From: Acidobacteriota bacterium
GTDB taxonomy: Bacteria; Acidobacteriota; Thermoanaerobaculia; Thermoanaerobaculales; Thermoanaerobaculaceae
Length of the DNA: 64,000 bases
Direction of reading: 5' to 3'
Assembly (NCBI GenBank): GCA_016213675.1
Contig: JACQZW010000024.1
Location: 1-64,000, forward strand
The position numbers and the translations under genes are program-made. The notes beneath the pieces were generated by a model that did no database searches, was not told where the DNA came from, and saw only the letters and a list, made by a program, of their open reading frames with translations. Each line of letters starts with the position of its first letter. Position 1 is the stretch's first letter. This document shows positions 22,828 to 51,509 of the stretch, one piece after another.

Positions 22828-23214
22828 TCAGGCGTGCGACTTCTCGGCCGCTTCCGCCTCGGACTTCGTCTTGTGCACCGTTCCGTCCGGGTGGTTCGGC
22901 GGAGAGTAGATCGTGTAGAGCTTCAACGGCGCCGCTTTCGACGCGTTGATCACGTTGTGGTAGGTCCCCGCCGGCACCACGACGCCGTCGCCGGCGTGCA
23001 CTAGGCGTTCTTCCTTCTCGTTGAAGACGAACCTGGCGTCGCCCCCCTCGATGCGGAAGAACTGATCGACGTCGGCGTGGACCTCGTCGCCGATCTCCTC
23101 ACCCGGCTGAAGGCTCATCAGCACGAGCTGGGCGTGCGTGGAGGTGAAGAGCACCTGCCGGAAGTAGGTGTTCCTCAGCGCCAGCTCCTCGATCGCTCCA
23201 ACGTACCCGGTCAT
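22828..23214 (-). CDS. Cupin-domain protein
   Basis: A 128-residue single-domain cupin. Motif 1 includes GEEIGDEVHADVDQFFRIEGG, with possible metal ligands His46 and Asp48/Asp50; motif 2 includes PAGTYHNVIN with a His. The fold is clear but no substrate is indicated; similar proteins are often annotated as mannose-6-phosphate-isomerase-like cupins. It is the last gene of a likely operon running from the BON gene at 25717 to here and lies 45 nt from the CsbD gene. Confidence 0.85.
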   Translation of the reverse strand: MTGYVGAIEELALRNTYFRQVLFTSTHAQLVLMSLQPGEEIGDEVHADVDQFFRIEGGDARFVFNEKEERLVHAGDGVVVPAGTYHNVINASKAAPLKLYTIYSPPNHPDGTVHKTKSEAEAAEKSHA

Positions 23215-23259
23215 AGTCCTGCCCTCCCGTTCCTCGGAGCCATGCCCCGCACGAACCTG

Positions 23260-23463
23260 TCACTTCTTGCTTGCCTTGGCGTCTCTGCCGACGAGCTCGC
23301 CGACCTTGCGACGGGCCTTGCCGAGGCGCTCCTGGGCCGCGCCCTCGGCTTCCTGCCGAAAGCCCTCCCGCTCCATCGCGGTGTTGCCCGTGATGATGCC
23401 GACGATTTCCTTCCCCTGTCCCAGAAGCTTCTTCTCCTTGCCGCGTGCTTCCTGCTGGGTCAT
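23260..23463 (-). CDS. CsbD family stress protein
   Basis: A 67-residue hydrophilic protein of the CsbD family, general-stress proteins of unknown mechanism. KKLLGQGKEIVGIITGN and AQERLGKARRKVGELVG are typical. It is a paralogue of the gene at 52596-52799, with the same length and a shared GKARRKVGELV end. Both copies lie in transcription units headed by the box A/B promoter, which supports a stress role. GGAGACGCC precedes the ATG. Confidence 0.9.
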   Translation of the reverse strand: MTQQEARGKEKKLLGQGKEIVGIITGNTAMEREGFRQEAEGAAQERLGKARRKVGELVGRDAKASKK

Positions 23464-23504
23464 GGCGTCTCCTTCGACGGTCAGGGCCTGCGGTGCGCGG
23501 TCGG

Positions 23505-24518
23505 TCAGTACTCCGCGAGTCGCACCAGTTGCTTGCCGTGGTTCGCCCCCTGCAGCATGCCGATGAAGGCCTGCGGCGCGGCCTCGAGGCCCTGGGCGAT
23601 GTCCTCGCGGTACTTCAGCTTCCCTTGCGTGAGCCACCTGGCCAGGTGCTCGAGCGCCTCCGGGAACCGCCCGGCGTAGGCAGAGACCAGGAAGCCCTGC
23701 ACCTTCGCCTGCTTGACGACCAACTGGCCCAGCCATCGTGGGCCCCTCTCGGGCTTCTCGAGGTTGTACTGCGAGATTTGCCCGCAGACGGAGATCCGCG
23801 CCTTCGCGTTGATCAGTCGGATGACCGAGTCGGTGACGACCCCGCCCACGTTGTCGAAGTAGACGTCGATGCCGGCGGGGCAAAGCTCCCTGAGCTTGGC
23901 GTGGCTGTCGGCCGCGGTCCGGTAGTTGAACGCGGCGTCGAACCCGAGCTCGTCGAGCAGCCACGTGATCTTGGTGTCGGAGCCGGCCATGCCGACGACG
24001 CGGCACCCCTTGATCTTGGCGATCTGGCCGACGAGCATCCCGACCGCTCCCGCCGCCCCGGACACCACGACCGTCTCCCCTCGTCGGGGGGCGCAGATGT
24101 CCAGGAGGCCGAAGTACGCCGTGAGCCCCGGCATGCCGAGCACCCCGAGGGCCGTCGAGACCGGCGCGAGGTCCGGGTCGACCTTCCTCAGCGTGCGACC
24201 AGGAACCACCGCGTACTCCTGCCATCCCAGGATCCCCTCGACGGTGTCGCCGGGGAGAAACTCCGGGTCCATCGACTCCACCACCCGAGCGACCGCGCCG
24301 CCGGTCATGACTTCGCCGATGGCAAGCGGCCGGGCGTATGACTCGGCATCGCTCATCCGCCCCCGCATGTAGGGATCGAGCGACAGGTAGATCGACCGGA
24401 CCAGCACTTCGCCTGCGGCAGGCGAAGGCACAGGGGTGTAGACCAGGTGGAAGTCCGACACCTTTGGGAAACCCACCGGCCGGGAGGCCAATGTGATTTG
24501 CCTGTTCACTGTCGCCAT
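23505..24518 (-). CDS. NADP-dependent MDR-family oxidoreductase (CurA/LTB4-reductase type)
   Basis: A 337-residue zinc-independent medium-chain reductase. It has the SLDPYMRGRM signature near residues 46-55, the cofactor loop VVSGAAGAVGMLVGQIAKIKG, and YFDNVGG and ARISVCGQISQYN segments typical of curcumin reductase CurA and prostaglandin/leukotriene B4 reductases. The family reduces alpha,beta-unsaturated carbonyls with NADPH, so detoxifying reactive aldehydes or enones under stress is likely. It lies between the DUF3185 and CsbD genes in the P2 transcription unit. Confidence 0.92.
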   Translation of the reverse strand: MATVNRQITLASRPVGFPKVSDFHLVYTPVPSPAAGEVLVRSIYLSLDPYMRGRMSDAESYARPLAIGEVMTGGAVARVVESMDPEFLPGDTVEGILGWQEYAVVPGRTLRKVDPDLAPVSTALGVLGMPGLTAYFGLLDICAPRRGETVVVSGAAGAVGMLVGQIAKIKGCRVVGMAGSDTKITWLLDELGFDAAFNYRTAADSHAKLRELCPAGIDVYFDNVGGVVTDSVIRLINAKARISVCGQISQYNLEKPERGPRWLGQLVVKQAKVQGFLVSAYAGRFPEALEHLARWLTQGKLKYREDIAQGLEAAPQAFIGMLQGANHGKQLVRLAEY

Positions 24519-24622
24519 TGCGTCCGACGTCCTTCCTCGGCAATCCGTCTTCCGATCGGATCGCGCCCCCGGAGCGGTGTGGCCAGGCGCCTCGGGGGGG
24601 ACAGGCGCAGGGAAGTCGCCAC

Positions 24623-24841
24623 CTACGTCTTCGTGCGCACGAAGAGCAGGATCCCGCCGGCCACGATCGCGCCGACGCCGGCCCACACCGGGATGTTGAC
24701 CGTCTCCTTGTCCTTGATCGAGAACTCGAGCGGGCCGATCTTCGCGTCGTGGGTCGACTTGGTGTAGGTGATGCCGCCGTACACGAGCCCGACGGCACCG
24801 GCGGCGATCAACAGGATTGCGACGAGCTTGAGTGCGCTCAC
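24623..24841 (-). CDS. DUF3185-family small membrane protein
   Basis: A 72-residue protein with two TM helices (residues 5-25, LVAILLIAAGAVGLVYGGITY, and about 50-68, IPVWAGVGAIVAGGILLFV) joined by KSTHDAKIGPLEFSIKDKETV, which is characteristic of DUF3185. It starts at GTG (24841) with GAAGGAGGACAC upstream. Function is unknown; genes of this family are often found among stress genes, as here. Confidence 0.85.
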   Translation of the reverse strand: MSALKLVAILLIAAGAVGLVYGGITYTKSTHDAKIGPLEFSIKDKETVNIPVWAGVGAIVAGGILLFVRTKT

Positions 24842-24991
24842 GTGTCCTCCTTCGTTCGGGCTCCCGGATGGATCGGACGGGCTTTGCGGAACCTGCGGTC
24901 CGAGGCGACCGGGATGCGAGTCGAGGACCCGGCCGCCGTCGTTGACGGCCGGGACCTCCCCGCTGCATGTGCTGGCCAGGACGACGACCGC

Positions 24992-25141
24992 CTAGACGAC
25001 GCGTCGTCCGGAGATGAGTCTGATCACCAGGATGACCACCGCCACCACCAGCAGGATGTGGATCAGGCCGCCGGCCGTGGTCGAGGTGACCATGCCGAGC
25101 AACCACAAGACGAGGAGAATGACCAGGATTGTCCAGAGCAT
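24992..25141 (-). CDS. lmo0937-family small membrane protein
   Basis: A 49-residue protein with two hydrophobic helices (MLWTILVILLVLWLLGMVTS, then GGLIHILLVVAVVILVIRLI) and the basic end SGRRVV. It matches the known lmo0937/DUF5670 pattern (MLWTI..ILLVLWLLG, then a GG.IHILLV..... helix and R.I.GRR). GGAGGACTGCA gives a strong ribosome binding site. It lies 24 nt downstream of the BON lipoprotein gene. The family is small and of unknown function, linked to stress in other bacteria. Confidence 0.85.
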   Translation of the reverse strand: MLWTILVILLVLWLLGMVTSTTAGGLIHILLVVAVVILVIRLISGRRVV

Positions 25142-25165
25142 TGCAGTCCTCCAGTCGTGTCGGGC

Positions 25166-25717
25166 CTAGTACTTCATTTTCCCGACGAGGAGCTCGTTGT
25201 TGACGTCCTTGACGCCCGCGGTGCCGCGCGCGATGCGCTCGGCGTCGCTCTTGATCAGGTCGGAGCTGACGCGACCGAGGAGCGTCACGATCCCCTGCGA
25301 GGAGCTCACGTCGATGTCGCCGGCCTTGATCTCGGTGTTGGCGATGAGCTTCGACTTGACCTTCGAGCTGATCATGACGTCGTCGACCCAACTGCCGACC
25401 GTCCGCTCTCCGACGGTGAGGTCGTTCACCACACCGTGCACGCCCTCGGTGCGCCACGCGACGCGCCCGGCCTCTCGGCGAGCCTCCTCGGTGTCCACCA
25501 CGCCGGTCAGGTACACGACGCCTTCACGGGTCTGGACCTCGACCTGCCTCGCCTTGACCTTGTCGTTGGTTCCGAGTGACGCCTCGACCACCTTCGTGAT
25601 CCCCGAGTCGGCATCCCGCCTGCCCTCGGGCACCATCGACGAGGCGCACCCGGCGAGTGCGATCAACGCAACGCCCGCCAGCAGGGAGCCCGCCGCTGCA
25701 ACCAGTATTCGTTTCAT
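25166..25717 (-). CDS. OsmY-like lipoprotein with two BON domains
   Basis: A 183-residue lipoprotein (lipobox ALAGC, Cys24). Two BON domains follow at about 38-105 and 112-180, with VYLTGVVDTEEARREAGRVAW and VTLLGRVSSDLIKSDAERIA as core segments. OsmY-type proteins are periplasmic and induced by osmotic stress; BON domains bind phospholipids. It is the first gene after promoter P2 and likely starts a six-gene unit (BON, lmo0937, DUF3185, reductase, CsbD, cupin). The leader AGGAAAGGACGGTACCTC is nearly identical to that of the gene at 32069. Confidence 0.9.
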   Translation of the reverse strand: MKRILVAAAGSLLAGVALIALAGCASSMVPEGRRDADSGITKVVEASLGTNDKVKARQVEVQTREGVVYLTGVVDTEEARREAGRVAWRTEGVHGVVNDLTVGERTVGSWVDDVMISSKVKSKLIANTEIKAGDIDVSSSQGIVTLLGRVSSDLIKSDAERIARGTAGVKDVNNELLVGKMKY

Positions 25718-25750
25718 GAGGTACCGTCCTTTCCTGAACGTGCTTCCAAC

Positions 25751-25825
25751 CTAGTCCCCGGATCCCCCGCGGGTAAGAGCACTTACTACCCGGGAACCGG
25801 ACCGCGGCGTGGGTAGAAACTACCC
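25751..25825 (-). promoter_or_regulatory. Box A/B/CTAG promoter P2
   Basis: Reading on the minus strand: box A at 25825-25811 (GGGTAGTTTCTACCC, perfect inverted repeat), box B at 25791-25772 (GGGTAGTAAGTGCTCTTACC) and CTAG at 25754-25751. The gaps are 19 and 17 bp. The BON-lipoprotein ATG lies 34 nt beyond. Confidence 0.92.
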
Positions 25826-25863
25826 TTCAGGCGACGGCGCGCCTCGCGCCGGCGGTGGCGTCC

Positions 25864-26679
25864 CTACGGTGTCGGTGTGAACGTCTGGGCCGGGCGCGGC
25901 ATGAGATAGGTGCTCCGCACGAACGGGCGCTCGGCGACGACGTAGAAGGCGTAGATGAGCAGGTGGCCGGCCGCGGCCGCGACGAGTCCGGGGAGGGAGC
26001 CGTATACGAGCGCGTAGCCGTACCCCTGGAGCTGCCCCACGGAGTACATGGGGTTGCGCATGAAGCGATAGGGCCCGCCGTCACACGCGGAGGCCAGTGG
26101 GCGCCCGAGGAACATGTCGCGGAAGTAGTACACGTCGACGCCCACGGTGAGCGTGGCCCACAGCTTGACCAGGAGGCCCACCACGAACAGCGCCACCCCC
26201 GTGGCGAGGACGAGCGACGCGGGCACCGCCTGCTCCAACCCTGGAACGTGCAACGCCGCCATGCAGCCGACCCCCAGCCCCTGGTTGAGGAACATCAGCC
26301 CGGCCAGGGTCTCGTACGCACGGAACGCGCGCTCCTCGCCGAACCGAGCGATCGCGCGGACGGGAAGCTCCGATCTGAGGATCACCGCGTTGCCGCCGTA
26401 GTAGAAGAGGAGCGTGAAGAGGAAGTAGGGCAGCGTGAGCCGCCAGTCGGCGCGGGCGATGAGCACGTGGGCGAGCGACACGGAGGCGACACTCCCGGCC
26501 ACCCACGCGGCGTTGAGGTGCTCGAGCCGCCAGCCGGCCATCGCGAACAGCGTCGACACGACTCGCAGCACGCCCCGGAGGATGCCGGGCCCCCGCGGGG
26601 CCGGTTGCCCTGGGCACTGGGTACCCGCGGGCACGTCGTGATGGTCGTGTACCGCGGCGCGTGCACGGAAGTCCCTCAT
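25864..26679 (-). CDS. PEMT/ICMT-family membrane methyltransferase
   Basis: A 271-residue protein with about seven hydrophobic helices. The C-terminal part has the family motifs of phospholipid/isoprenylcysteine methyltransferases: GGPYRFMRNPMYSVGQLQGYG, then a hydrophobic hairpin and AERPF. These bind SAM within the membrane and methylate lipids or isoprenyl groups. The substrate here is unknown; lipid head-group methylation is plausible. It is transcribed from P3, with an unusually long leader of about 110 nt, and is the only gene on that transcript. An in-frame stop just upstream makes ATG 26679 the first possible start. Confidence 0.8.
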   Translation of the reverse strand: MRDFRARAAVHDHHDVPAGTQCPGQPAPRGPGILRGVLRVVSTLFAMAGWRLEHLNAAWVAGSVASVSLAHVLIARADWRLTLPYFLFTLLFYYGGNAVILRSELPVRAIARFGEERAFRAYETLAGLMFLNQGLGVGCMAALHVPGLEQAVPASLVLATGVALFVVGLLVKLWATLTVGVDVYYFRDMFLGRPLASACDGGPYRFMRNPMYSVGQLQGYGYALVYGSLPGLVAAAAGHLLIYAFYVVAERPFVRSTYLMPRPAQTFTPTP

Positions 26680-26790
26680 GCCTCACCCCCGCCGGCTTCG
26701 CAACCTGCCTGCCGCACGGAGGTGGCGTCCGCCGTGATCGACGGCGACACGGTCCGTGGAGTGCGTTCCTCTCCAGAGCACATCTGGAAC

Positions 26791-26865
26791 CTAGTGCACT
26801 CCGCCCGCACCTTTATCCGCACGTTCTACCCGGAATCGAAGCCGTCGACCAGGTAGGAACTACCC
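26791..26865 (-). promoter_or_regulatory. Box A/B/CTAG promoter P3
   Basis: On the minus strand: box A GGGTAGTTCCTACCT (26865-26851), box B beginning GGGTAGAACGTGCGG (26831-26812; the CTTCCC part is degenerate here) and CTAG (26794-26791). Spacing is 19 and 17 bp as elsewhere. Confidence 0.85.
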
Positions 26866-26990
26866 CCCCCGGTCCCCTCAAACAGCATCGCCCCGCCTCG
26901 TCATCGCGAGCACGGCACGGCCCGGGGCGGGCCGCTACTTCGGGGAAGCAACGCAGTGAGGCTCCGCGGTTGCGCTCCCTGGCCTCGCGT

Positions 26991-27207
26991 TGTCATCCCG
27001 AGGAGCAACGCGACGAGGGATCCTCTGCCTTTCATCATGGACAGTAGATCCCTCGCTTCGCTCGGGATGACACGTGCACGTGAGCGTCGGCGATTTGGTG
27101 GTGTCACTTGGGAGGCCCGCAGGGCCGAAGCAACCCTGGCGCGCTTGGAGCGCGATCAGGCGCATCGGGGTTGCTTCGTCGCCGCTTCGCGGCTCCTCGC
27201 AAGGACG
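26991..27207. repeat. Composite repeat fragments
   Basis: Two adjacent fragments of the dispersed repeat family. At 26991-27072, TGTCATCCCGAGGAG faces CTCGGGATGACAC. At 27105-27207, GGAGGCCCGCAGGGCCGAAG leads to a GGGGTTGCTTCGTCGCCGC block shared with copy B. No gene is seen from 26866 to 27332. Confidence 0.6.
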
Positions 27208-27332
27208 GTTCTTCTCTCGAGAGAGTGGCCCTGCCCAGGCCGTACCTTGCTCGTGCCGACGGCACCATCCTCGAAGAGGCGGCCGCCGGTCCCCTCGTCC
27301 TCGCGGCAGCGCGTGGTATAAGTCGGGCCAGC

Positions 27333-28157
27333 ATGACCTGGCAAGGGACAAAGGCGGTCGTAGCGAGGCTTGCGCAGGCGGACCGTTCCGCCGCCGAGAT
27401 CGCCTTCTACCTGGCGCTGTCGCTGGTGCCCCTGGTCGGCGTGACGATCGCGCTGGCTGGCCGCTGGCTTCCGCTCGACCTGAGCGCGTCCATCGAGGAA
27501 GTCCTGCGCGCGGTCCTGCCCGTGGAGTCGCAGGTTGGCGCGGGCGAGGTGCTGGAATGGGCGCGCTCCGCGGCCAGTCAGGGGTGGCTGACAGTTGGCT
27601 TCGTCGTGGCGCTGTGGACCTCGTTTCGCTTCATGTCGCTGTGCATCCGCTCGCTCGGCACGATCGTCTCCAGCGGGGTCCACCCGCCGGAGAAGGCCTG
27701 GCGCGCGGCTGCAAGATCGCTTCTGCTGCTCGTGGTCTGGATCGTGGCACTGGTGGCGACGGCGCTCTTCCTCGTCGTGGCGCCCGCCGTCGAGAGCGGC
27801 CTGCTTCGTCTCGCCAGGCTGTCGGACCTTTCGCTCTCGGCCTTCTCGGCGCTGCGGGCGGTCCTCCTGGCGGGGGTCCTGTTCGGCGCGTTCAACCTGA
27901 CCTACCGCGTGGTCGTCGGCGCGCGGGCGGGCTGGTTCCGGGTGGCGCTGGCCGCGCTGTTGGCCTCCCTGGGTTGGATCGGTGCCAGCCTGGGCTTCTC
28001 CCTCGTCGTCCCGGTGCTGTGGAAGGCAACGCTGCTCTACGGCACGCTCGGCAGCGTGGTGCTGTTCCTGCTCTGGGCCTACGTCATGGCCTGGGTTCTT
28101 CTGCTCGGCGGGTTCCTGCTCGTGCGGCCCGGCCGGCCGTCGGTTGCCGAGCCGTAG
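27333..28157 (+). CDS. YihY/BrkB-family membrane protein
   Basis: A 274-residue integral membrane protein with six predicted helices and the family pattern: an N-terminal AEIAFYLALSLVPLVGVTIAL segment, a central SSFRFMSLCIRSL-like region and a C-terminal GTLGSVVLFLLWAYVMAWVLLLGGFLL. The family (formerly called ribonuclease BN or BrkB) comprises inner-membrane proteins of unclear transport or lipid function. The frame is open well upstream, but the ATG at 27333 gives the normal N-terminus; GCGTGGTATAAGT just upstream could be a promoter -10 region. It lacks the box A/B promoter. Confidence 0.83.
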   Translation: MTWQGTKAVVARLAQADRSAAEIAFYLALSLVPLVGVTIALAGRWLPLDLSASIEEVLRAVLPVESQVGAGEVLEWARSAASQGWLTVGFVVALWTSFRFMSLCIRSLGTIVSSGVHPPEKAWRAAARSLLLLVVWIVALVATALFLVVAPAVESGLLRLARLSDLSLSAFSALRAVLLAGVLFGAFNLTYRVVVGARAGWFRVALAALLASLGWIGASLGFSLVVPVLWKATLLYGTLGSVVLFLLWAYVMAWVLLLGGFLLVRPGRPSVAEP

Positions 28158-28257
28158 TCCATGCCGTGACACGCGTCTAGCCTTGCCGGGCGCGGTGTCG
28201 TCCAAACGACCGGGCTGCACCTGACCTTTCGGGGTGATCGGCTGGACGGCTGCGTGG

Positions 28258-28875
28258 CTACCCGTCGTCGCCCGCTCGCCCGGTGGACGTCTCCGGGAGG
28301 GGCGCGACCAGCGAGGCCCGCACGATGAACCTCTTCGGTGCGCGCCCAACGTACGAGAACGGAAAACAGGTCACGAGGCTGAGGACGGTGTCGTCGGTCG
28401 GGTCGAGGACCCGGATGTCCTTCGGACCCACGACCTCGGTCGAGTCCACGACGTACTCGTAGGACCGCACCGGCGTGACGATCCGGATCGTGTCCTTCGG
28501 ACGGATGCCCCGGAGCTCGCGGAAGAACGAGTCCCGGTGCCCGGCGAGCGCCATGTTGCCGCGCTCGCCGGGCAGTGCTGTACCGGTGATGTGGCCGACC
28601 GCGATGGCCAGCGTGGTGTCGTCGTCCCCCTCCCGCACGATCGCCGTGACGCCGATCCGCGGGATCTCGATTCGCCCGAGGACGAGCGGATCCGCGCTGA
28701 CTCTCGTGGCGGGATCACGCGTCGTGACAGGGTAAAAGGCGCGCTCCTGACGCGCCTGGTAAACCCTGGTATTCAAGGTCGCCGCGAGCGCCCAGCCGAG
28801 GAGCGAGAGCCCGATGATCACGAGGGCGATCGCACTCCGGCGGAGCCACCGCGCGGCGCAGGAGATCCTCGTCAC
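28258..28875 (-). CDS. Sortase (class D-like)
   Basis: A 205-residue sortase. TM anchor at about 14-32, then the sortase barrel with catalytic His113 (LAGHRDSFFREL), Cys170 (SLVTCFPF) and Arg182 (RAPKRFIVRA). The order and motifs fit class D/E single-substrate sortases. It overlaps the upstream gene by 4 nt, and that gene encodes a protein ending in an LPATAS sorting signal, so this is a dedicated transpeptidase/substrate pair. Sortases are uncommon in organisms with outer membranes. The acceptor is unknown. Expression is expected from P4. Confidence 0.92.
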   Translation of the reverse strand: MTRISCAARWLRRSAIALVIIGLSLLGWALAATLNTRVYQARQERAFYPVTTRDPATRVSADPLVLGRIEIPRIGVTAIVREGDDDTTLAIAVGHITGTALPGERGNMALAGHRDSFFRELRGIRPKDTIRIVTPVRSYEYVVDSTEVVGPKDIRVLDPTDDTVLSLVTCFPFSYVGRAPKRFIVRASLVAPLPETSTGRAGDDG

Positions 28876-29591
28876 GCCACCCGTCTCGCCAGCACGCCGA
28901 GACCGAGCGCGCCGAGGAGCGACAGGAGCCCGAGCCCCGCATACATCGGGACTCTGCTCGCGGTCGCGGGCAGGATCTTCTGATCGAGAGAGCTGTCGGC
29001 CACGACGACCGGCGCCGGAGCAGGTTCGGGGACCGGCGGCGCCTCAGCCTTCGCCATCTCGAACGGCTTCACTTCCTTCTCCGGTGTCACGATGACGAGG
29101 GGTGCGGTCTCGTACTCTGCGACCTTCACCTCGTCCGGAATCGCGACCACCGGCTCCTTGACCTGGGCGGCGAGCTCCATGGCACGTTTGGTGGGATAGA
29201 CGATGTCATGTCCGCCGCTGCCCGGCGTGTTGGCGGCGAACCAGGTCCTGAGCGCCCTGGGCTGGCCGGCGATGGCTGGGTAGTAGACGTAGCGACTCCA
29301 GTCGACCTGCACGCCCTGGGTTCCCTCCTGGTGGGGAACCGTGAGGACGTTGACGTACAACTTCGACAAGTCCGCGCTCCTCACCTGCAGAAGATCGCGG
29401 TTCCAATGGAGCGGAACGACCTTGATCTGGTAGCTGCCGGGCTGCAGGATCGTGCCTCCCACGTCCAGCGGCTCGGTTAAGGTGAAAATGGCGTCCTCGG
29501 GGGTCTCCACCGCGTTCGCAGTGCCGGTGAGGCCGAAGCCGAGCAGCATGGCGCACAGGCCCACGGTCAACCAACTCGTCAGTTTCTTCAT
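28872..29591 (-). CDS. Secreted sortase substrate with LPATAS signal
   Basis: A 239-residue secreted protein. It has a signal peptide (MKKLTSWLTVGLCAMLLGFG...NA, about residue 27), an ordered domain (about 30-130) beginning FTLTEPLDVGGTILQPGSYQIKV, a Pro-rich stretch (PPVPEPAPAPVV) and a C-terminal sorting signal: LPATAS at 207-212, a hydrophobic helix and ARRVA. This is the classical tripartite sortase signal. The start is set by the signal peptide and AGAGGTGCTGAG, though the frame is open upstream. It is expressed from P4 and coupled to the sortase by a 4-nt overlap. The function of the anchored domain is unknown. Confidence 0.88.
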   Translation of the reverse strand: MKKLTSWLTVGLCAMLLGFGLTGTANAVETPEDAIFTLTEPLDVGGTILQPGSYQIKVVPLHWNRDLLQVRSADLSKLYVNVLTVPHQEGTQGVQVDWSRYVYYPAIAGQPRALRTWFAANTPGSGGHDIVYPTKRAMELAAQVKEPVVAIPDEVKVAEYETAPLVIVTPEKEVKPFEMAKAEAPPVPEPAPAPVVVADSSLDQKILPATASRVPMYAGLGLLSLLGALGLGVLARRVA

Positions 29592-29813
29592 CTCAGCACC
29601 TCTCTTTTCTTTCGCTCGTTTGCTGCTTGCTGGGGTTGAACGGCCGAAGGCAGCCGGGCCGTCGATGACATGGCGATGATCGTCGGATCGCCCTCCTTCC
29701 CGGGGAGAGGCGGGGGCAGCCGGCGTCAGCAGGTTGATGCCGGCCGGGTCCCCAGCTACGACGACGAATAGGCGTCTTGCGAGACATCGCGCATCCTTGA
29801 ACATGTTCTCAAG

Positions 29814-29888
29814 CTAGTCCTCGGATCCACTACGGGGAAGAGCACTTACTACCCGAGCGCGGACGCGCGGCGTGGGTAGAAACTACCC
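29814..29888 (-). promoter_or_regulatory. Box A/B/CTAG promoter P4
   Basis: On the minus strand: box A GGGTAGTTTCTACCC (29888-29874), box B GGGTAGTAAGTGCTCTTCCC (29854-29835) and CTAG (29817-29814). Gaps are 19 and 17 bp. The start codon of the sortase substrate is 223 nt away, the longest leader of the eleven. Confidence 0.92.
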
Positions 29889-30023
29889 GTCAGGCGGCCG
29901 GCTGCCCTCGCCGGCCTTCACGGTGCTCGGCGTGGGACCCTGCTCGATGCGCGTCCCGCGTCCCCGGCCGCCCTGGCGGCGATCCCGGCGACCGGGCCGC
30001 TCCGGTCCCACAGGAACGAGACG

Positions 30024-30049
30024 GCCCGCCCGGGTCTCCCCGAGCGGGC
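30024..30049 (-). terminator. Terminator-like hairpin after BON gene
   Basis: On the minus strand GCCCGCTCGGG, loop GAGA, CCCGGGCGGGC, an 11-bp stem with one G-U-type mismatch, 32 nt beyond the stop at 30081. It separates that gene from P4. Confidence 0.5.
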
Positions 30050-30080
30050 TCTATGTCCATCACGCCCCGGTCGGGGCGAC

Positions 30081-30635
30081 CTACTTCGTGTCGACGGAGA
30101 CGACCTTGATCACGCCCGCGACACCCTTGACGATCTTGTCCGCCTCCTGGCGGCGCGCGGCGGCGAACTCGCGGTTGAAGCCGAGCGTCACCACCCCGTC
30201 GGCGACCTCGGTGCCGATCCGGAATCCGTCAGTGCCCATCCTGTCGACCAGTGCGAGTCGAATCTTGGTCGCAAGGATGGCGTCCTTCAACTCCGCTTCG
30301 GCCTCGCCGGCTGCGACACCGGTCTTGTTGGGGTTCGCCACGCTGGCCTCGAGGAGGACGTCGTTCTTTACGCTCGACACGCCGGCGACCGACGTGGCGA
30401 TCGTCTCGGCGAGCTCGCGGGTCTCGCGCTTGTCGACCGTGCCCTTGAGGGTCACGGCTCCGGCGTTGGAGTCGACGTCCACGTGCATGCTGTCGGTGCC
30501 CAGCTTGTTGAGCAGGGCGAGCTTGACGTTCAGCGTGGTGATCCAGTCCTCCTTGGTGTCCGCGGCGTTCGCCGCGCCCACACCGATCAGCACCGCACCG
30601 ATCAGCGCCATCATCACGAGCGTCTTCAGTCTCAT
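30081..30635 (-). CDS. Periplasmic protein with two BON domains
   Basis: A 184-residue exported protein (signal peptide cleaved after ANAA, about residue 25). Two BON domains lie at about 35-98 and 118-182 (VTLKGTVDKRETRELAETIA; VTLGFNREFAAARRQEADKIV). This is a second OsmY-like protein in the island; unlike 25166-25717 it has no lipobox. It follows the DUF6600-type gene by 75 nt and probably shares promoter P5. GGGAGAAGGAC precedes the ATG. Confidence 0.88.
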   Translation of the reverse strand: MRLKTLVMMALIGAVLIGVGAANAADTKEDWITTLNVKLALLNKLGTDSMHVDVDSNAGAVTLKGTVDKRETRELAETIATSVAGVSSVKNDVLLEASVANPNKTGVAAGEAEAELKDAILATKIRLALVDRMGTDGFRIGTEVADGVVTLGFNREFAAARRQEADKIVKGVAGVIKVVSVDTK

Positions 30636-30710
30636 GTCCTTCTCCCTGTGTCTGGTGAGGCGCGGCCTGGTATCCCGTCCTGGCCGCGCCCCCCCTTCTA
30701 CTTCTTCCTT

Positions 30711-32069
30711 CTACTTCTTCCGCTTGTCGTCTTCCGACTTCTTCTTGTTCTCGTCATCCTCGTCCGCGAGCTTCTTCTGGCTCTGGTTGGTCGCGCGGCC
30801 GGGTTGGTTCACGCGCACGGACTCGCGCTTCGCCTTCTGTCGCACCTCGAGCTGTTGCGCGGCGATCCGCTGCTGCTGCTGCAGCGCCTCACGCTCGACC
30901 TGTTGGCGCTTGACGATCTTCTCGCGCTCGGCCTGCGCGCCCACCCTGGCGATCTCCTGCTGCTGGAGCTTGTCGATCTTCCGCTTCTCGTCGGCCTGGT
31001 ACTTCAGGAGATCCTGCTGCTCACGGCGCTCGATCCGATCGAGCTGCTGGGGATCGTTGCGCGGCGCGGGGACGGCCCGCGGGGCGATCTGGTACTCCGG
31101 GGCGTCGCGACGCTGCGTCGCAGGCCTGCCGTTGTCCTGGACCGTGGGCGGCGTTCCTTCGCGCAGACCGGCGTTGGCGCTCGGCCCGATGCGCACCGTC
31201 TCGAGCTTCTGCCGCTCGGGCCGGTAGATGCGCACCTCGCTCTTCGCCACCGCGGAACGCGTCTTCAACGTCGTTCCGGCGACGCGCAGCGAGGGCACGC
31301 GCTGGCCGGTCACCTGCTCGATGCGTCGAACGTCGACGCCTCGGTTCACCACCCGGTTGTCGATGGTGGTGTAGTTGGTGATGTTGGTGGTGTTGTGGAT
31401 GATGGTGACGTTGCGCGCCGTCGGGAGCATGTAGCGCGACAGGCGAGGATCGAGGAAGGAGCGCTCCGGCACGAAGCTGTAGGCATCCGGCCGGATGCCG
31501 ACGCTCAGGTTGAACCCGCCGAGCCTGATGCCGACGCCGATCTCGAAGCCGACCGCAGGCGGCAGCGGCGCCCAGCCCAGGTAGCCTCCGCCGTGCTGCC
31601 AGGAGACCCAGGCCGGCCCCCAGACCGTGCCGGGGACCCAGAGCCAACCGAACCGCTGATCCCACGCCCAACGGCCGTAGTGGTAGGTAGCCCAGCCGAA
31701 CGGCTCGTACGACACCCAGGTCCAGCCGTACTCGGTGGCCACCCAGCGGCCGTCGCTGTACGGGCGCCAGTAGGGGTGCACGTCGTAGGGGAACCAGGCC
31801 CAACCGTAGTGGCGGGTCAGCACCCAGTCGCCGTAGGGGGACAGCTCCTCGTAGAAGAAGCCGACATCGCCCCGCGGCGAGTACCGGTCGTCGTCGCGCC
31901 AGTTGCCGTCGCGCCGGTCGTCGCCCCGCCGGTCGTCATAGCGGTCCCGGTCGTCGTATTGCTGGTTTGAACCCGGGGGAGGGCCGTAGCCGGGAGACTG
32001 CGCGTAGGCCGCGCACCCGGTGACGACTCCCAGCAGGATGGCAAAGGTTGCCGGTCGGAGCAGGTTCAT
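30711..32069 (-). CDS. DUF6600-type envelope protein with coiled-coil tail
   Basis: A 452-residue exported protein. The N-terminus has a lipobox-like VVTGC (Cys19) but also an AYAQ cleavage site, so anchoring is unsure. An Asp/Arg-rich low-complexity stretch (about 37-68) is followed by a Trp/Tyr/Gly-rich region (about 70-165: SPYGDWVLTRHYGWAWFPY, GRWVATEYGWTWVSYEPFGW), the hallmark of DUF6600. A variable domain comes next, then a long Gln/Arg/Glu coiled coil (about 330-440) and a lysine-rich end. The role is unknown. The start at 32069 is fixed by the conserved leader AGAAAGGACGGTGCCTC and the 34-nt distance from promoter P5. Confidence 0.85.
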   Translation of the reverse strand: MNLLRPATFAILLGVVTGCAAYAQSPGYGPPPGSNQQYDDRDRYDDRRGDDRRDGNWRDDDRYSPRGDVGFFYEELSPYGDWVLTRHYGWAWFPYDVHPYWRPYSDGRWVATEYGWTWVSYEPFGWATYHYGRWAWDQRFGWLWVPGTVWGPAWVSWQHGGGYLGWAPLPPAVGFEIGVGIRLGGFNLSVGIRPDAYSFVPERSFLDPRLSRYMLPTARNVTIIHNTTNITNYTTIDNRVVNRGVDVRRIEQVTGQRVPSLRVAGTTLKTRSAVAKSEVRIYRPERQKLETVRIGPSANAGLREGTPPTVQDNGRPATQRRDAPEYQIAPRAVPAPRNDPQQLDRIERREQQDLLKYQADEKRKIDKLQQQEIARVGAQAEREKIVKRQQVEREALQQQQRIAAQQLEVRQKAKRESVRVNQPGRATNQSQKKLADEDDENKKKSEDDKRKK

Positions 32070-32102
32070 GAGGCACCGTCCTTTCTCGGACATGCCTCCA
32101 AA

Positions 32103-32177
32103 CTAGGCCTCGGATCCAGCACCGGGAAGAGCACTTACTACCCGGGAGCCGAAGCGCGTCGTGGGTAGAAACTACCC
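32103..32177 (-). promoter_or_regulatory. Box A/B/CTAG promoter P5
   Basis: On the minus strand: box A GGGTAGTTTCTACCC (32177-32163), box B GGGTAGTAAGTGCTCTTCCC (32143-32124) and CTAG (32106-32103). Gaps of 19 and 17 bp; ATG 34 nt from the CTAG start. This copy matches the consensus at every position. Confidence 0.93.
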
Positions 32178-32243
32178 CTCCTCCGCGTGAGACGGAGGAG
32201 CTCCCTCGCCGCGTCGCTCCGCCCGAGTCACATCGCCGGAAGC

Positions 32244-32485
32244 GTCATCCTGAGCGGACAGAGCGAGCGACGGATGCGGGAGCACCGCGCCAGTTGCAGC
32301 GAGCGCGCCCACTGCCTGCCACCCGACCGCCACCGGGTTCCGGCCTTAGCCCTGCAAACCGCGTCGCGCCACCCGCCCAACCCTCCGCGCGATTTCGGCG
32401 CGCCTGGAGAGCCACGCTGCACGTCTGGGTCAACCTCGGGCGCCTCGGGATCCTTCGTCGTCGCTGCGCTCCTCCTCAGGATGAC
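32244..32485 (+). repeat. Composite dispersed repeat, copy C
   Basis: Plus-strand copy related to 20938-21162 and (reversed) 252-410. Facing ends are GTCATCCTGAGCG and CTCCTCAGGATGAC; internal blocks are GGATGCGGGAGCACCGCGCC and GTCGCGCCACCCGCCCAACC. It lies in a gene-free stretch between P5 and the end of the GGDEF-EAL gene. Confidence 0.72.
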
Positions 32486-32644
32486 GGAGGGAGTCGCGCG
32501 GCACTCACTCGCCTCATCGGGTTACTTCCTCGACGAAGCGGCTCGGGCTTGCCGTCCTGTGCTCAGGATCACGGAGGAGGCGTACAGTGCCCGCTCGCCT
32601 GACTGTGGGCTTCCTCGAAGACGAAGCCTGCGGAGGTTTCCTGT

Positions 32645-35095
32645 TCAGGCCGATGCGCTGCGGAGGAGCGTCGCCAGCTCGTCGGCGGGCAAGGCAGCGG
32701 CGAATAGGTGGCCCTGGTAGGCGTCGCAGCCGTGCGCGTGGAGGACCTCGAGCTGGGCAGGGGTCTCGACGCCCTCCGCCACGACGCCGAGCCTGAGGCC
32801 GTGCCCTAGCTCGATGGCCGCGCGCGCGATGGCCCGGTCGGTCTCGTCGTCGGCGATCTGGCGGATGAAGGAACCGTCCAGCTTGAGTCGGTCGATGGGG
32901 AAGCGCCGCAGGTGCTTGAGCGACGAGTAGCCGGTGCCGAAGTCGTCGAGGGCGAGCGTGACGCCGAGGGCCTTGACGGCCTTGAGGGTGCCGACCGCGG
33001 CCTCGAGGTTGGTCACGACCGAACCCTCGGTGATCTCGATCTCGAGCAGACCGGGGTCAAGGCCGGTCTCCGCCAGGGTCGCGCCGATTTGCTCGGTGAG
33101 GGGCGAAGTGGAGATTTCCTTTGCCGACATGTTGACCGCCACGCGAAGCGGGGGGAGACCCTCGGCCAGCCACGTGCGCATCTGGCGGCAGGCAGCGCGG
33201 AGGACCCACGCGCCGATGCCCTCGACCAGTCCGGTGTCCTCGGCGAGCTGGATGAACGAGCCGGGAAAGACGAGCCCCAGGTCCGGGTGGCGCCAGCGGA
33301 CGAGCGCCTCGACGCCGACGATCCCGCCGGTTCGCACCGACACCGGCGGTTGGAAGTGGAGGACGAACTCGTCGTGGCGCAGGGCATGGCGCAGGCCGCT
33401 CTCCAGGCGGAAGCGCTCCTCCGCCGTACGGGTCAGCTCGTCGGTGTAGAACTGCAGGCTGCCGCGGGCCTGCTCTTTGGCGCGGTACATGGCGCTGGCC
33501 GCGTGGTTCATGAGGGCGGTGAGGTCGTCCCCGTCTTCCGGGCAGACGCTGACGCCGATGCAGGCCGTGATGAAGAGCTCGTTACCGGCGAAGGTGAACG
33601 GGGCGGCCAGAGTGTCGAGGATCCTGCGCGCGACCGCACCGGCGCTGGCGGCTTCGTTCGGCTCCTCGAGGAGCACCGCGAACTCGTCGCCGCCCCAGCG
33701 GCCGACGGTGTCGTCCGCCCTCACACAGAAGCCCAATCGTTCGGCCACTTCGCGGAGCAGCTCGTCCTCGGCGGGGTGGCCGAGGGAGTCGTTGAGGCGC
33801 TTGAACCGGTCGAGGTCGAGGTCGAGGAGCATCACGGCGACGCGGCCGTTGGTGCGGCGGGCGCGCGCCAACGCGTGTTCGCCCCGCGCAGCGAAGAGAA
33901 GCCGGTTGGGCAGGCCGGTGAGTGGGTCGTGGTGGGCGAGGAACCTGAAGCGCGCCTCGCTCTCCTTGATCGCGCTGAGGTCCGAGAAGACGCCGACGTA
34001 ATTCGCCACGTGACCCTGCTCGTCACGGACGACGTTGATGGAGAGCAGCTCCGGGTAGATCACGCCGTTCTTCCGGCGATTCCAGATTTCGCCCTGCCAA
34101 CGCCCGTGGCCGCGGATCGCCTCCCACATCTCATCGTAAAACGCCTGGTCGTGGCGGCCAGACTGGAGGAGGCTCGGTTGCTTTCCGACCACCTCCGCCT
34201 CGCCGTAGCCGGTGACCTCGCAGAAGGCTCGGTTCACCGCCAGGATGCGGAGCTTCGAATCGGTGATCACGACCCCTTCGGTGGTGTCCTCGACCGCGAC
34301 CCCGGCAAGACGCAGGCCGTCCTCGGCGCGCTCCCGCGTGGCGACCTCGATCCGCAGGCGGCCGCTGGCCTCGCCGACGTCGGTGCCGCGCGCTCGCGTC
34401 CGCTGCTCGAGCTCCGCAGAGAGCTCGGCCAATTGTCGGGCCAGGTCGAGATTCCCGATCCGCGCCCGGGCCATGCCGATGACCTGCCAGAGCAGCGGCA
34501 GCAGCGTCGCCATCTGAGCGCCGGTGCGACGGTTGTCGGCGGCGATGAAGGTGCCTCCGGGGGTATCGTCCGGGGGGAACGACAGCAGGACGACGCTCGT
34601 CGGAGTCCAGCCACCCCCGGGGAGCGACAGCGCGCCGGCGGGGAGGGACCACTCCCGGGAGCCGCGAACCGTCGCGGCGAGCTCCTCGGCAACGGTCGCC
34701 GGGACGAGCAGCGTGGCGCCGCTCGGCCCGCCGTGCGCGAACGCCGTCCGCTCGGGTCGGATGACCAGGCCGGCGTCCGTGGTTTCGACGAACCCGCAGT
34801 ACGGCAGGTCCTTGAGAATCGACACCCGCTTGAGGACGGTCGCGAGGATGCCGGCGGTGTCCTTGCACCGGCTGATCGCCTCGGCGACCAGCCCGAGGAG
34901 CGGGATGCCCTCGGCCTGCTCCGCGAGGCTGTCGTTCTCGGCCTGGCTGACGCGCAGGCGCACCTCGAGGTCCCGGCAGCGCGCTTCGAGCTCGTCGACC
35001 ACCGACGAATTCCGCGAGGGAGCCGACGATCGCGCCGGCCAGGTGCTGCGGCTCGTCGACCTGACCGGTCTCCTCGGGCTGGTGTGCGGCGGCAT
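32645..35095 (-). CDS. GAF-PAS-GGDEF-EAL cyclic-di-GMP protein
   Basis: An 816-residue (from ATG 35095) cytoplasmic protein for c-di-GMP turnover. It has a GAF-like region (about 65-215), a coiled coil, a PAS domain (262-380), a GGDEF domain with intact GGDEF at 468-472 and an upstream inhibitory-site RADD (459-462), and an EAL domain with EALVRW at 596, NMSAKE, DDFGTGYSS (717-725) and EGVET. Both catalytic signatures are intact. The first ~30 residues (Arg/Ser/Pro-rich) look unnatural. Promoter spacing and the leader instead favour ATG 35158, from which an in-frame TAG stops translation after 19 codons, so the 5' end may be frameshifted or coupled to a leader peptide. Confidence 0.88.
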   Translation of the reverse strand: MPPHTSPRRPVRSTSRSTWPARSSAPSRNSSVVDELEARCRDLEVRLRVSQAENDSLAEQAEGIPLLGLVAEAISRCKDTAGILATVLKRVSILKDLPYCGFVETTDAGLVIRPERTAFAHGGPSGATLLVPATVAEELAATVRGSREWSLPAGALSLPGGGWTPTSVVLLSFPPDDTPGGTFIAADNRRTGAQMATLLPLLWQVIGMARARIGNLDLARQLAELSAELEQRTRARGTDVGEASGRLRIEVATRERAEDGLRLAGVAVEDTTEGVVITDSKLRILAVNRAFCEVTGYGEAEVVGKQPSLLQSGRHDQAFYDEMWEAIRGHGRWQGEIWNRRKNGVIYPELLSINVVRDEQGHVANYVGVFSDLSAIKESEARFRFLAHHDPLTGLPNRLLFAARGEHALARARRTNGRVAVMLLDLDLDRFKRLNDSLGHPAEDELLREVAERLGFCVRADDTVGRWGGDEFAVLLEEPNEAASAGAVARRILDTLAAPFTFAGNELFITACIGVSVCPEDGDDLTALMNHAASAMYRAKEQARGSLQFYTDELTRTAEERFRLESGLRHALRHDEFVLHFQPPVSVRTGGIVGVEALVRWRHPDLGLVFPGSFIQLAEDTGLVEGIGAWVLRAACRQMRTWLAEGLPPLRVAVNMSAKEISTSPLTEQIGATLAETGLDPGLLEIEITEGSVVTNLEAAVGTLKAVKALGVTLALDDFGTGYSSLKHLRRFPIDRLKLDGSFIRQIADDETDRAIARAAIELGHGLRLGVVAEGVETPAQLEVLHAHGCDAYQGHLFAAALPADELATLLRSASA

Positions 35096-35098
35096 GAC

Positions 35099-35158: not shown

Positions 35159-35194
35159 GTCGGATCGTCTTTCCTTAAGAGTACTTCCCGAAAT

Positions 35195-35269: not shown

Positions 35270-35330
35270 CTTCGACACCCACGTCCGATCACCGGCCCCC
35301 GCGCGCCCGGTGCTCCGGGTAGAACCGGTA

Positions 35331-48736: not shown

Positions 48737-50896
48737 ATGAGGAAGGCGCTGAAGCCGCATGGGAAGGCGGACGACCGGAGCCGCACGGTCGCCGCGCTGT
48801 TGGTGGCGGCGAGCGCGGTGGCGGAGAACCGGGCGTTCGCCGACGCGACGCGGGCGATCCTGGCGGCATGCAAGAGGATGCTCGGCGCCGGCGCCGGCCT
48901 CGTCGGCGTACGCGTGCCGGGCGGCAAGGAGCTCGAGGTCGCCCTCGTCGATCCCGGCGGCCTTGCGCTCGACCCTGCTGCCGGGTTTCCTGCGGTGCTG
49001 CGCCGTCTGAGCGCTCGTGCCTCCAAGCTCGGCCGGCCCGTCTTCACCAACGACCTGTCGAAGTCCGCGGCGAACGTGTCCCCCGCGACCCGCGGTCGCC
49101 GAGTGCTCCCGCAGAACGCGCTCCTCGCACCGGTCGTCATCGCCGGCGAGGTCGCCGGGCTCGTCGGCCTGCTCGACAAGCCGGGGGGCTTCTCGGCGGC
49201 CGACTGTCGGCTCGCCGCGGTGTTCGCCGAGATGACGGCCGTGGCGATGCTCAACAGCCGCAAGGTCGGCCGCCTCCAGGAGGACCGGAACGGCCTCGCC
49301 AGGGAGGTGCGCGAGGGCGCCACGCACCTGCGCCGGGCCGAGGCGCAGTTCAGGACGCTGGTCGAGAACCTGCCCGACATCATCGCCCGCTTCGACGCGG
49401 ACCTGCGCCACCTCTACGTCAGCCCCTCGGTCCAGCGCGTCACCGGACGCCACCCGCGGGACTTCGTGGGCAGGACGAACCGCGAACTGGGGATGTCGCC
49501 CGAGCTCGTCGAGGTGTGGGACACCGCCCTGAAGAGGGTCTTCGCGACCGGACAGCCCGGGAGGATCGAGTTCGCCTTCCCGGCCCAGGACGGGACGAGG
49601 TACTTCGACTGCCGGCTGGTCCCGGAGCTCGGGCCGCGGGGCGCGATCCCGTCCGTGCTCAGCGTCGCCCGCGACGTGACCGACAGGTGGCTCGCGTTCG
49701 AGGCCGAGCGGCACGCCCGCTTTGTCGCCGACGCCCTCCGCGAGGCGACCGTGGTGCTCACCCGCAGCCTCGACCGCGGAACGGTGCTGGTGACCCTGCT
49801 CGACCGCCTGCGCCGGATGGTCCCCTTCGACCGCGCCCGCGTCATGCTCCTCGAGGCGGAGTCGCGGCTCTCGGTCCGGGCCATCTTCGACGGCGACCAC
49901 GTCGTTCCGATGACCCCCGAGGTGCGATCGGAGTTCGATCCGACCGATCATCCGATCGTCCACGGCATCCTGAAGACCGGTACGGCCGTGCTGATCTCCG
50001 ACGTCCGCGCGCACCCCGACTGGAGCCTCCCGATGGACCGCACGTCCGAGGCGAGCTGGATGGGGGTCCCGCTGTTCGCCCGTGGCGACGTGGCCGGGCT
50101 GTTCTCGCTCTCCAAGCGGCAGCCCGGCTACTTCAAGGAGGAGCACGTCAAGCTGGCCGAGGCGATGTCGTCCCAGGCCTCGGTCGCCGTCGAGAACGCG
50201 ATCCTCTTCGAGCAGATGCAGGCCTCCACGGTGCGGATGAAGGCGCTCTCTCGCCGTCTCGTGGAGGTTCAGGAGAGCGAGCGGCGCAGCATCGCCCGCG
50301 AGCTTCACGACGAGGCGGGTCAGGCGCTGGTGTCGCTGCGAATCGGGCTCCGGCTGCTCGAGCGGGAGATCGGCGAGGGCGGCAGTGTCACCGGGCTGGT
50401 GGCGGACCTCATGCAGAGGACCGATGCCGTCATCGACGGCCTGCACCGTCTGGCCGCGGACCTGCGGCCGGCGAGCCTCGACTACCTGGGGCTCGAGGCG
50501 GCGCTCCGCCAGTACTCGCGCTCGGTCGGGTCCAAGTTCGGGCTGGTGGTCCGCTTCAAGGCGCGCGGGTTCACCAGCGAGCGGCTCCCGGCGACGGTGG
50601 AGACCGCGCTGTACCGGGTGGTCCAGGAGGCGATCACCAACGTCGTGCGCCACGCCCGCGCGACCCAGGTCGACGTGCTGGCGGAACGTCGCGGCGACCG
50701 CGTGCACGTGATGGTCGAGGACGACGGCGTCGGCTTCGAGCCGGAGCTGGTCCAGCGCGGTGATCACTTCGGCCTGCTGGGCCTGAGGGAGCGAGCCGAG
50801 TCCCTGGGCGGGGTCCTGACCGTGGAGAGCGCGCCGGGGGCGGGCACGACCGTGGTGGTGGAGGTGCCGAGTGCCGATCCGCATTCTGATCGCTGA
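48737..50896 (+). CDS. GAF-PAS-GAF sensor histidine kinase (NarX/DevS-like)
   Basis: A 719-residue kinase without TM segments. It has GAF 1 (about 20-170), PAS (about 205-320; FRTLVENLPDIIARFDADLRHLYVS), GAF 2 (about 345-495), a HisKA_3 dimerisation domain with phospho-acceptor His524 (RRSIARELHDEAGQAL), and an HATPase domain (about 610-715; EAITNVVRHARA, VEDDGVGF, GLLGLRERAESLGG). This is the NarX/DevS class that pairs with NarL/LuxR regulators. The response regulator start lies 26 nt inside this gene. GAGGAGAGGCCC supports ATG 48737 over 48722. A soluble GAF sensor suggests a cytoplasmic or diffusible signal. Confidence 0.93.
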   Translation: MRKALKPHGKADDRSRTVAALLVAASAVAENRAFADATRAILAACKRMLGAGAGLVGVRVPGGKELEVALVDPGGLALDPAAGFPAVLRRLSARASKLGRPVFTNDLSKSAANVSPATRGRRVLPQNALLAPVVIAGEVAGLVGLLDKPGGFSAADCRLAAVFAEMTAVAMLNSRKVGRLQEDRNGLAREVREGATHLRRAEAQFRTLVENLPDIIARFDADLRHLYVSPSVQRVTGRHPRDFVGRTNRELGMSPELVEVWDTALKRVFATGQPGRIEFAFPAQDGTRYFDCRLVPELGPRGAIPSVLSVARDVTDRWLAFEAERHARFVADALREATVVLTRSLDRGTVLVTLLDRLRRMVPFDRARVMLLEAESRLSVRAIFDGDHVVPMTPEVRSEFDPTDHPIVHGILKTGTAVLISDVRAHPDWSLPMDRTSEASWMGVPLFARGDVAGLFSLSKRQPGYFKEEHVKLAEAMSSQASVAVENAILFEQMQASTVRMKALSRRLVEVQESERRSIARELHDEAGQALVSLRIGLRLLEREIGEGGSVTGLVADLMQRTDAVIDGLHRLAADLRPASLDYLGLEAALRQYSRSVGSKFGLVVRFKARGFTSERLPATVETALYRVVQEAITNVVRHARATQVDVLAERRGDRVHVMVEDDGVGFEPELVQRGDHFGLLGLRERAESLGGVLTVESAPGAGTTVVVEVPSADPHSDR

Positions 50897-51509
50897 CGAC
50901 CACGCGGTGGTCCGTTCCGGCCTCAAGGCGTTGCTCCGCGCCGACCCCGATCTCGAGGTCGTCGGCGAGGCGGGAGATGGGGTGGAGGTGGTGCGCCTGG
51001 TCGAGGAGTTGCACCCCGACGTGGTCCTGCTCGACATCACCATGCCCCCCGACAACGGCATCGAGACCGCCAAGCGACTGAAAGCGCAGCACCCGGAGCT
51101 GATCGTGCTGTTCCTCACCATGCACGAGGACGAGACCCTGCTGCACGAGGCGTTGCGCGCGGGCGCCGCGGGCTACGTGATCAAGCGGGCCGAGGAGTCC
51201 GAGATCATCGAGGCGATCCGGGCGGCGAACCGGGGCGACATCTACGTGCACCCCGCGATGACCCGCGCGCTCCTCCACCAGCCCGTCACGACAGAGCACC
51301 GGCGCGGCGTCCAGGCCATCGCGCTCACCCGTCGCGAGCTCGACGTCCTGCGCCTCCTCGCCAAGGGGAACACCAACCGGCAGATCGCTGCCCTGCTCAG
51401 CCTGTCGATGCGCACCGTCGAGAACCACCGTGCCAACCTGATGGGCAAGCTCGGGCTGGTCAGCCGCGTCGAGCTGGTGAACTACGCCGAGGAGCACAAG
51501 CTCCTCTAG
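50871..51509 (+). CDS. NarL/LuxR-family response regulator
   Basis: A 212-residue regulator starting at GTG 50871 and overlapping the kinase gene by 26 nt. The receiver domain has the acidic pair Asp9/Asp10, phospho-acceptor Asp55 (VVLLDITMP) and conserved LTMHED and GYVIKRA segments. The C-terminal LuxR helix-turn-helix (about 148-210; LTRRELDVLRLLAKGNTNRQIAALLSLSMRTVENHRANLMGKL) is intact. Regulators of this class bind short inverted repeats, and box A (GGGTAG-N3-CTACCC) has that form, so it is the leading candidate for the regulator of the eleven promoters. One of them (P10) lies just downstream. Confidence 0.94.
   Translation: MPIRILIADDHAVVRSGLKALLRADPDLEVVGEAGDGVEVVRLVEELHPDVVLLDITMPPDNGIETAKRLKAQHPELIVLFLTMHEDETLLHEALRAGAAGYVIKRAEESEIIEAIRAANRGDIYVHPAMTRALLHQPVTTEHRRGVQAIALTRRELDVLRLLAKGNTNRQIAALLSLSMRTVENHRANLMGKLGLVSRVELVNYAEEHKLL

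Follow-up and report, generated by a model that had tools for sequence, protein, structure and literature searches.

The window analysed here, a 64,000-nt stretch of Acidobacteriota DNA, encodes on its minus strand a sortase and, directly upstream of it, a protein that ends in a sorting signal. This pair is real and conserved and, judging by its sequences, probably active. We consider it likely that the two genes constitute a dedicated one-enzyme, one-substrate system with a class D-like sortase in an outer-membrane (diderm) bacterium, in which peptidoglycan of the meso-diaminopimelate (mDAP) type would serve as the acceptor and a NarL-type regulator would exert control. Most likely, the pair works in the manner of SrtC/BasI of B. 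anthracis, here in an outer-membrane cell. The chemistry is familiar, but there is little precedent for such a target family, for this type of cell or for the mode of control. The new parts would be the substrate family and the clustered regulon in an outer-membrane cell, the kind of system being already known.

The overlapping sortase and target genes

28258..28875, minus strand: class D-like sortase gene (GTG start, 205 aa), with an N-terminal membrane anchor and the residues His113, Cys170 and Arg182 (profiles, alignment, predicted fold)
28872..29591, minus strand: dedicated sortase target gene (ATG start, 239 aa)
29511..29591, minus strand: predicted signal peptide of the target, residues 1-27, ending TANA and followed by VET (sequence, by eye)
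29058..29501, minus strand: predicted beta-rich domain of the target, about residues 31-178 (AlphaFold2)
28956..28973, minus strand: sorting motif LPATAS, residues 207-212 (sequence, alignment)
28875..28955, minus strand: C-terminal hydrophobic helix and ARRVA basic tail (sequence, prediction, tail alignment A1)

The original prediction had described a substrate ending in LPATAS, a hydrophobic helix and ARRVA, with a gene that overlaps by 4 nt that of a sortase with His113, Cys170 and Arg182, and all of these details proved exact, including the residue numbers. The overlap reads GTGA on the minus strand and places the target stop over the sortase GTG start. The sortase matches the Pfam profile PF04203 (E=1e-30, 106.5 bits with a cut-off of 26.6) and also exceeds the cut-off of TIGR01076 (67.5 versus 39.35 bits). 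Its predicted structure is a sortase fold with a long N-terminal helix, for which Foldseek ranked sortase D of C. perfringens (4D70, E=5.5e-13) as the top PDB match, with class A and C structures close after it. The nine closest named relatives are all records from Acidobacteria (L044-L052). In an alignment of nine sortases, which includes the window sequence and omits L051 because that sequence is interrupted by an unknown base, the three catalytic residues are invariant (9/9), so that the loss in relatives that had been named as possible counter-evidence is not seen. The dN/dS values of the sortase (0.31-0.51 over 10 pairs, Nei-Gojobori), which are rough in such GC-rich DNA, point to purifying selection.

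Among the NCBI sortase classes, the class D models gave the highest scores for the window sortase and matched all nine aligned members. The scores of the window sortase are below the cut-offs of these models (117.4 versus 165 bits for NF033746 and 127.3 versus 140 bits for NF058671), and we therefore use the label 'class D-like'. This view is supported by the solved structures, of which B. anthracis SrtD (2LN7) is the closest by sequence and C. perfringens SrtD (4D70) the next, and by the LPxTA-type signal, a class D trait, in the gene adjacent to the sortase ([LM]PxTAS in 10/10 aligned targets). Assignment to class GN (TIGR03784) was rejected, the score being 88.8 bits with a cut-off of 158.25.

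The target fits the layout of LPXTG-type proteins, with a signal peptide, the motif, a hydrophobic helix and a basic end, as judged from its sequence and from a helix predicted with low confidence at residues 216-238. A Pro/Ala-rich linker lies between the beta-rich domain and LPATAS. The AlphaFold2 block means are mostly 80-95 for residues 31-170, with dips near residues 91-100 and 121-130. Profile searches found no Pfam or NCBIfam family match for this domain, and a sequence search of the PDB with the target gave no match. Foldseek with the target model returned nothing at E≤0.001 (best 0.36) and VIA-align nothing with a Z of at least 5 (best 4.1); the domain was compared within a longer chain, where a weak or missing match does not equal a new fold. 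Nine relatives of the target were aligned, eight of them 51-65% identical and one 24%, and all have the sorting tail. Indeed, the sorting signal, whose absence from orthologues would have spoken against the pair, is kept as [LM]PxTAS in each of the ten sequences with the window included. The tail model PF00746 matches 7 of these 10 at E≤1 (best E=3.3e-5), the window target not being among them. Purifying selection is again suggested by dN/dS (0.20-0.60 over 10 pairs, with the same method and the same roughness).

Pairing of sortase and target in the host, the family and the phylum

The window belongs to an Acidobacteriota MAG of 4.97 Mb (G000; 92% complete, estimated contamination 4.65%), in which the window sortase is the single match to PF04203. 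A scan of the 518 window ORFs of at least 60 aa for sorting tails gave two candidates, namely the LPATAS tail and one spurious LPRTS. The proposed search for other sorting tails in the genome was made with a 33-position profile of such tails, and the one match at E<0.01 was the LPATAS tail itself; three more rows, with E from 0.04 to 2.3, each cover part of the profile only. With one sortase and one clear sorting tail, the host apparently contains a one-enzyme, one-substrate pair.

In 39 neighbourhood genomes, G000 included, a sortase was found in 19 (29 genes after merging two split matches) and a tail at E≤1e-6 in 14 (22 tails), and 13 genomes have both. The tail is present and the sortase absent in G033. 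A sortase and no tail at this threshold were found in G013, G021, G023, G024, G034 and G035; at the sortase locus of G023 and of G024 lies a gene for a von Willebrand-type target, with LPQTA and VPQTA, respectively, at its C-terminus. In family f2, several tails and sortases are located on separate contigs (G022, G025, G027, G028, G029 and G030).

Sortases tend to be regarded as typical of Gram-positive bacteria, and the original prediction had likewise noted that they are best known from Gram-positive cell-wall anchoring. They are less exceptional elsewhere than this suggests: 60 of 297 sampled Acidobacteriota genomes, or one fifth, have a sortase, many with a tail-bearing neighbour, and the available text of one report already describes a dedicated Gram-negative sortase family (TIGR03784; PMC3237569). 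At 29 sortase loci of the phylum (L163-L191), the strict form of the tail scan detected an ORF ending in a [LM]PxT[AG] motif, a hydrophobic stretch and a basic end in 20 cases, and in none of 39 control loci of comparable length; the remaining 9 sortase loci showed no tail within the roughly 3.4 kb of sequence scanned.

The target domain itself (profile A4) occurs in 10 of 149 phylum genomes at E≤1e-5, with 11 matches. In all ten genomes the best match ends in a sorting tail, and in eight of them a sortase ORF lies at the same locus. In the other two, G065 and G087, the sortase is about 1.4 and 2 kb from the match, and all ten genomes have it on the same contig. The eleventh match (E=5e-8) is without a tail. 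Because the best matches are tailed and have a sortase close by, the domain appears to define a family of dedicated sortase substrates, and it was hardly ever found outside this role. Altogether, the PF04203 match, the alignments and this phylum-wide tie between domain and sortase bear out the coupled, conserved pair that had been proposed. The suggested comparison of synteny agrees with this, as target and sortase recur side by side in relatives, in some of which genes for a BON lipoprotein and an lmo0937-type protein are the direct upstream neighbours.

Additional sortase pairs were observed in G004, G011 and G014 (L021, L022, L026-L029). Their targets carry LPKTA or LPKTG and seem to differ from the window target in the remaining domains, and up to five sortases occur in one genome (G004). 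The sortase of L023 (G014:C5) has an N-terminus that resembles a cleavable signal peptide and not an anchor; a tail-bearing neighbour was not found at this locus.

Tandem-palindrome sites and the putative stress regulon

29840..29888, minus strand: putative activator site, a 49-bp tandem palindrome of the form GGGTAGTTTCTACCC-N19-GGGTAGTAAGTGCTC, centres 34 bp apart (alignment of ten sites)
29811..29816, minus strand: inferred -10-like element TAGCTT, 23 nt downstream of the site (alignment of ten sites)
24995..25717, minus strand: genes for an lmo0937-type 49-aa membrane protein and a BON lipoprotein, with their own tandem site (profiles, site search)
48737..50896, plus strand: histidine kinase with PAS, GAF and HisKA_3 domains, candidate sensor (profile search)
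50871..51509, plus strand: NarL/LuxR-type response regulator, candidate activator of the sites (PF00072 and PF00196)

Expression of the pair had been attributed to a promoter element, P4, and to a stress regulon. The element exists: it is the site at 29840-29888 on the minus strand, one of ten near-identical 49-bp sites between 22143 and 54613. Leave-one-out scores of the ten range from 37 to 69 bits, the top score in 20 resampled windows being 3.9. When at most one mismatch to the core pattern is allowed, the whole genome contains 10 matches (one of them a reverse reading), all inside this 32-kb stretch; at up to 3 mismatches the real and the reversed pattern perform alike (37 and 30 matches). 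An upstream in-frame ATG at 29804 was rejected as the start of the target, since the -10-like element would place the transcript start at or after this ATG; the conserved protein appears to start at 29591.

Closer examination of 17 genomes of the family at up to 1 mismatch revealed sites in six of them (10 in G000, 11 in G014, 8 in G011, 8 in G007, 6 in G004, including one contig-end duplicate, and 1 in G015) and no matches of the reversed pattern. This duplicate comes from L047, whose two contig ends (positions 1-120 and 4290-4409) are identical over 120 nt and may therefore stem from a circular or an overlapping assembly product. The five genomes that have many sites, and no others in the family, encode a close orthologue of the target; the same five, again with no others, have the response regulator encoded at 50871-51509 or its orthologue at no less than 83% identity (83-86% in the four genomes other than the host). 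The regulator match is 65% identical in G015 and 60% or less in the other family genomes, where these have a match at E≤1e-30 at all. This co-occurrence suggests that the regulator is most likely the activator that binds the sites.

In each of the four genomes with enough contig sequence upstream of the pair, a site is located there: directly before the pair in G000 and G011, before the order BON lipoprotein-lmo0937-target-sortase in G004, and before the BON lipoprotein gene, across a contig break, in G014. G007 was left out of this count, as its contig stops too early. At L048-L052, which have the pair, the tandem site was not found (best score -8.6). In three of these more distant relatives (L048, L049 and L051) an lmo0937-type gene nevertheless lies directly before the target, and the association of the genes is therefore older than their control by the site.

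The commonest gene after a site in relatives is that for the BON lipoprotein, 59 nt downstream, and the genes in the site stretch of the window include those for BON, CsbD, lmo0937-type, dodecin, GGDEF-EAL and PEMT-type proteins. The stretch 22143-54613 is thus likely to be a clustered regulon with its histidine kinase and NarL-type regulator inside. Stress control can be inferred, since it agrees with the layout of the promoter, with the stress-type genes nearby and with the response regulator that co-occurs with the sites, and 'stress regulon' seems a fair label for the cluster of the sortase operon; to this qualified extent the original prediction stands. A scan of 20000-36000 found no sigma-70-like promoter, with terminators at chance level, and the regulon was not found in the literature searched by gene names. 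A gene for an ECF-type sigma factor (Sigma70_r2 and r4_2; 47793-48461) ends beside the site at 47761.

Probable acceptor of the target and comparison with known systems

The presence of an outer membrane, which had been assumed from neighbouring genes, is supported by Omp85 in four places of the host genome and by LpxC (E=1.2e-83); the host is a diderm bacterium. The host MurE contains a DNPR motif, which we take to be the signature of mDAP-adding enzymes. The acceptor had been called unclear in the original prediction, which nonetheless spoke of surface anchoring. Given an mDAP-type MurE and a class D-like enzyme in a diderm cell, the choice of acceptor narrows to periplasmic peptidoglycan as the expected one, and this is likely to be the anchor rather than the cell surface. 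An inner-membrane sortase of a diderm would meet peptidoglycan in the periplasm, and surface display would require an extra step, for which no candidate was seen in the conserved neighbourhood of the pair.

In the proposed mechanism, the signal peptide would direct the target to export by Sec, after which the helix and the basic residues at its C-terminus would retain it in the inner membrane, LPATAS facing the periplasm. Cys170 of the membrane-anchored sortase, assisted by His113 and Arg182, would attack the Thr-Ala bond; these residues are present in the protein and their chemistry is taken from the family. The side-chain amine of mDAP in lipid II or new peptidoglycan would then resolve the acyl-enzyme, as the DNPR motif in MurE and the precedent of B. 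anthracis SrtC suggest, and the beta-rich domain would end up on periplasmic peptidoglycan through the Pro/Ala-rich linker. The sortase operon would be turned on, along with the genes for the BON lipoprotein, CsbD and the lmo0937-type protein, when an activator occupies the two palindromes that precede the promoter. This activator is most likely the NarL-type regulator; the site is visible in the DNA and its binding is predicted. The target would probably serve to reinforce or mark the cell wall in envelope stress.

Wall tethering is elsewhere the task of L,D-transpeptidases and Braun-type lipoproteins. If the target is placed on peptidoglycan, sortases would join L,D-transpeptidases as a covalent protein-to-wall route in diderms. 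More tentatively, and with more doubt than confidence on our side, the pair may exemplify a stress-inducible covalent anchoring of proteins to peptidoglycan in diderms, with the sortase as a wall tether, an unnamed substrate family of its own across the Acidobacteriota, and a single NarL-type regulator that acts on the tandem palindromes to induce the pair and the BON lipoproteins together. In any case, the system is small and testable, with a single enzyme acting on a single substrate and with one acceptor and one regulator predicted, and it belongs to a major soil phylum.

Sortases hydrolyse their substrates when the nucleophile is absent, and the enzyme could merely trim the target and release it into the periplasm with no covalent attachment. 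Peptidoglycan is an expected acceptor, which leaves room for this, but the transpeptidase triad and the sorting tail are fully conserved, including the residues after the scissile bond, and nothing specific to hydrolysis was seen; we give trimming a small chance. It is equally unlikely, in our opinion, that the cleaved target is passed on to an outer-membrane or extracellular acceptor and shown outside the cell. Such an outward route has been proposed for exosortase/PEP-CTERM, another C-terminal sorting system of diderms, according to the available text (PMC1569441), and the acceptor in the present system is a predicted one. However, no transporter or outer-membrane partner is conserved beside the pair, whose neighbours in the loci read are BON, CsbD and lmo0937-type genes and unrelated metabolic genes, and the class D precedent and the mDAP-type MurE favour peptidoglycan.

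A VYPK-like string in several target relatives could suggest a system of the pilin type, with target molecules joined into polymers by the sortase via a pilin-motif lysine. This position varies among the ten aligned targets (T, K, E, E, E, K, R, Q, K, K), and there is a single target gene with no second tail-bearing gene nearby. The pilin reading was rejected on the basis of the non-conserved lysine, and we regard it as highly improbable. The estimated contamination of the MAG raises the question of whether the contig is of Gram-positive origin. The chance of this is negligible, as the window is part of a 172-kb contig, the nine closest named sortase relatives are all from Acidobacteria, and families from across the phylum also have the pair.

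The preferred reading, anchoring to periplasmic peptidoglycan, has its closest parallel in B. anthracis, where the class D sortase SrtC cuts LPNTA between Thr and Ala and the substrate is joined to m-Dpm of the wall, as stated in the accessible part of the report (PMC3297441). There, the operon basI-srtC-sctR-sctS is under two-component control, again as far as the accessible texts go (PMC3297441, PMC3208642). Shared with this system are the class D-type enzyme, the adjacent substrate gene and the LPxTA motif. An mDAP acceptor and two-component control are predicted for the window system as well, and the stationary-phase or stress timing described in these texts (PMC3297441, PMC3208642) would also be similar. 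However, B. anthracis is a monoderm spore-former with another substrate and a regulator within the operon, whereas the window system belongs to a diderm, with an unnamed substrate family, a candidate regulator about 20 kb away and sites before about ten operons.

The substrate of C. perfringens SrtD (4D70), the best Foldseek match, is likewise encoded in the same operon, with the signal LPQTGS in the part of the paper available (PMC4498605); the identity to the window sortase is 32% over the aligned part, and C. perfringens is a monoderm. In the open-licence PubMed Central literature, we found no study of a substrate for Acidobacteria sortases, and one genome table names such sortases: it lists 'Sortase' COG genes for Solibacter usitatus, the passage seen giving no substrate, motif or regulation (PMC3174227). 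The TIGR03784 system resembles that of the window in being dedicated, in a diderm, with one adjacent LPXTG-type target, as far as the available text describes it (PMC3237569). Unlike the window target, which is unrelated, its target is of the von Willebrand/VIT type, and the window sortase reaches 88.8 of 158.25 bits with its model.

Two further loci from the same class as the host (L018 in G024 and L020 in G023) contain sortases of another type, next to which large von Willebrand-type proteins with a terminal VPQTA or LPQTA motif are encoded; these systems resemble the known Gram-negative dedicated type. In Chloroflexota (L058-L061), a sortase was observed near a large protein that ends in an LPATS-type tail.
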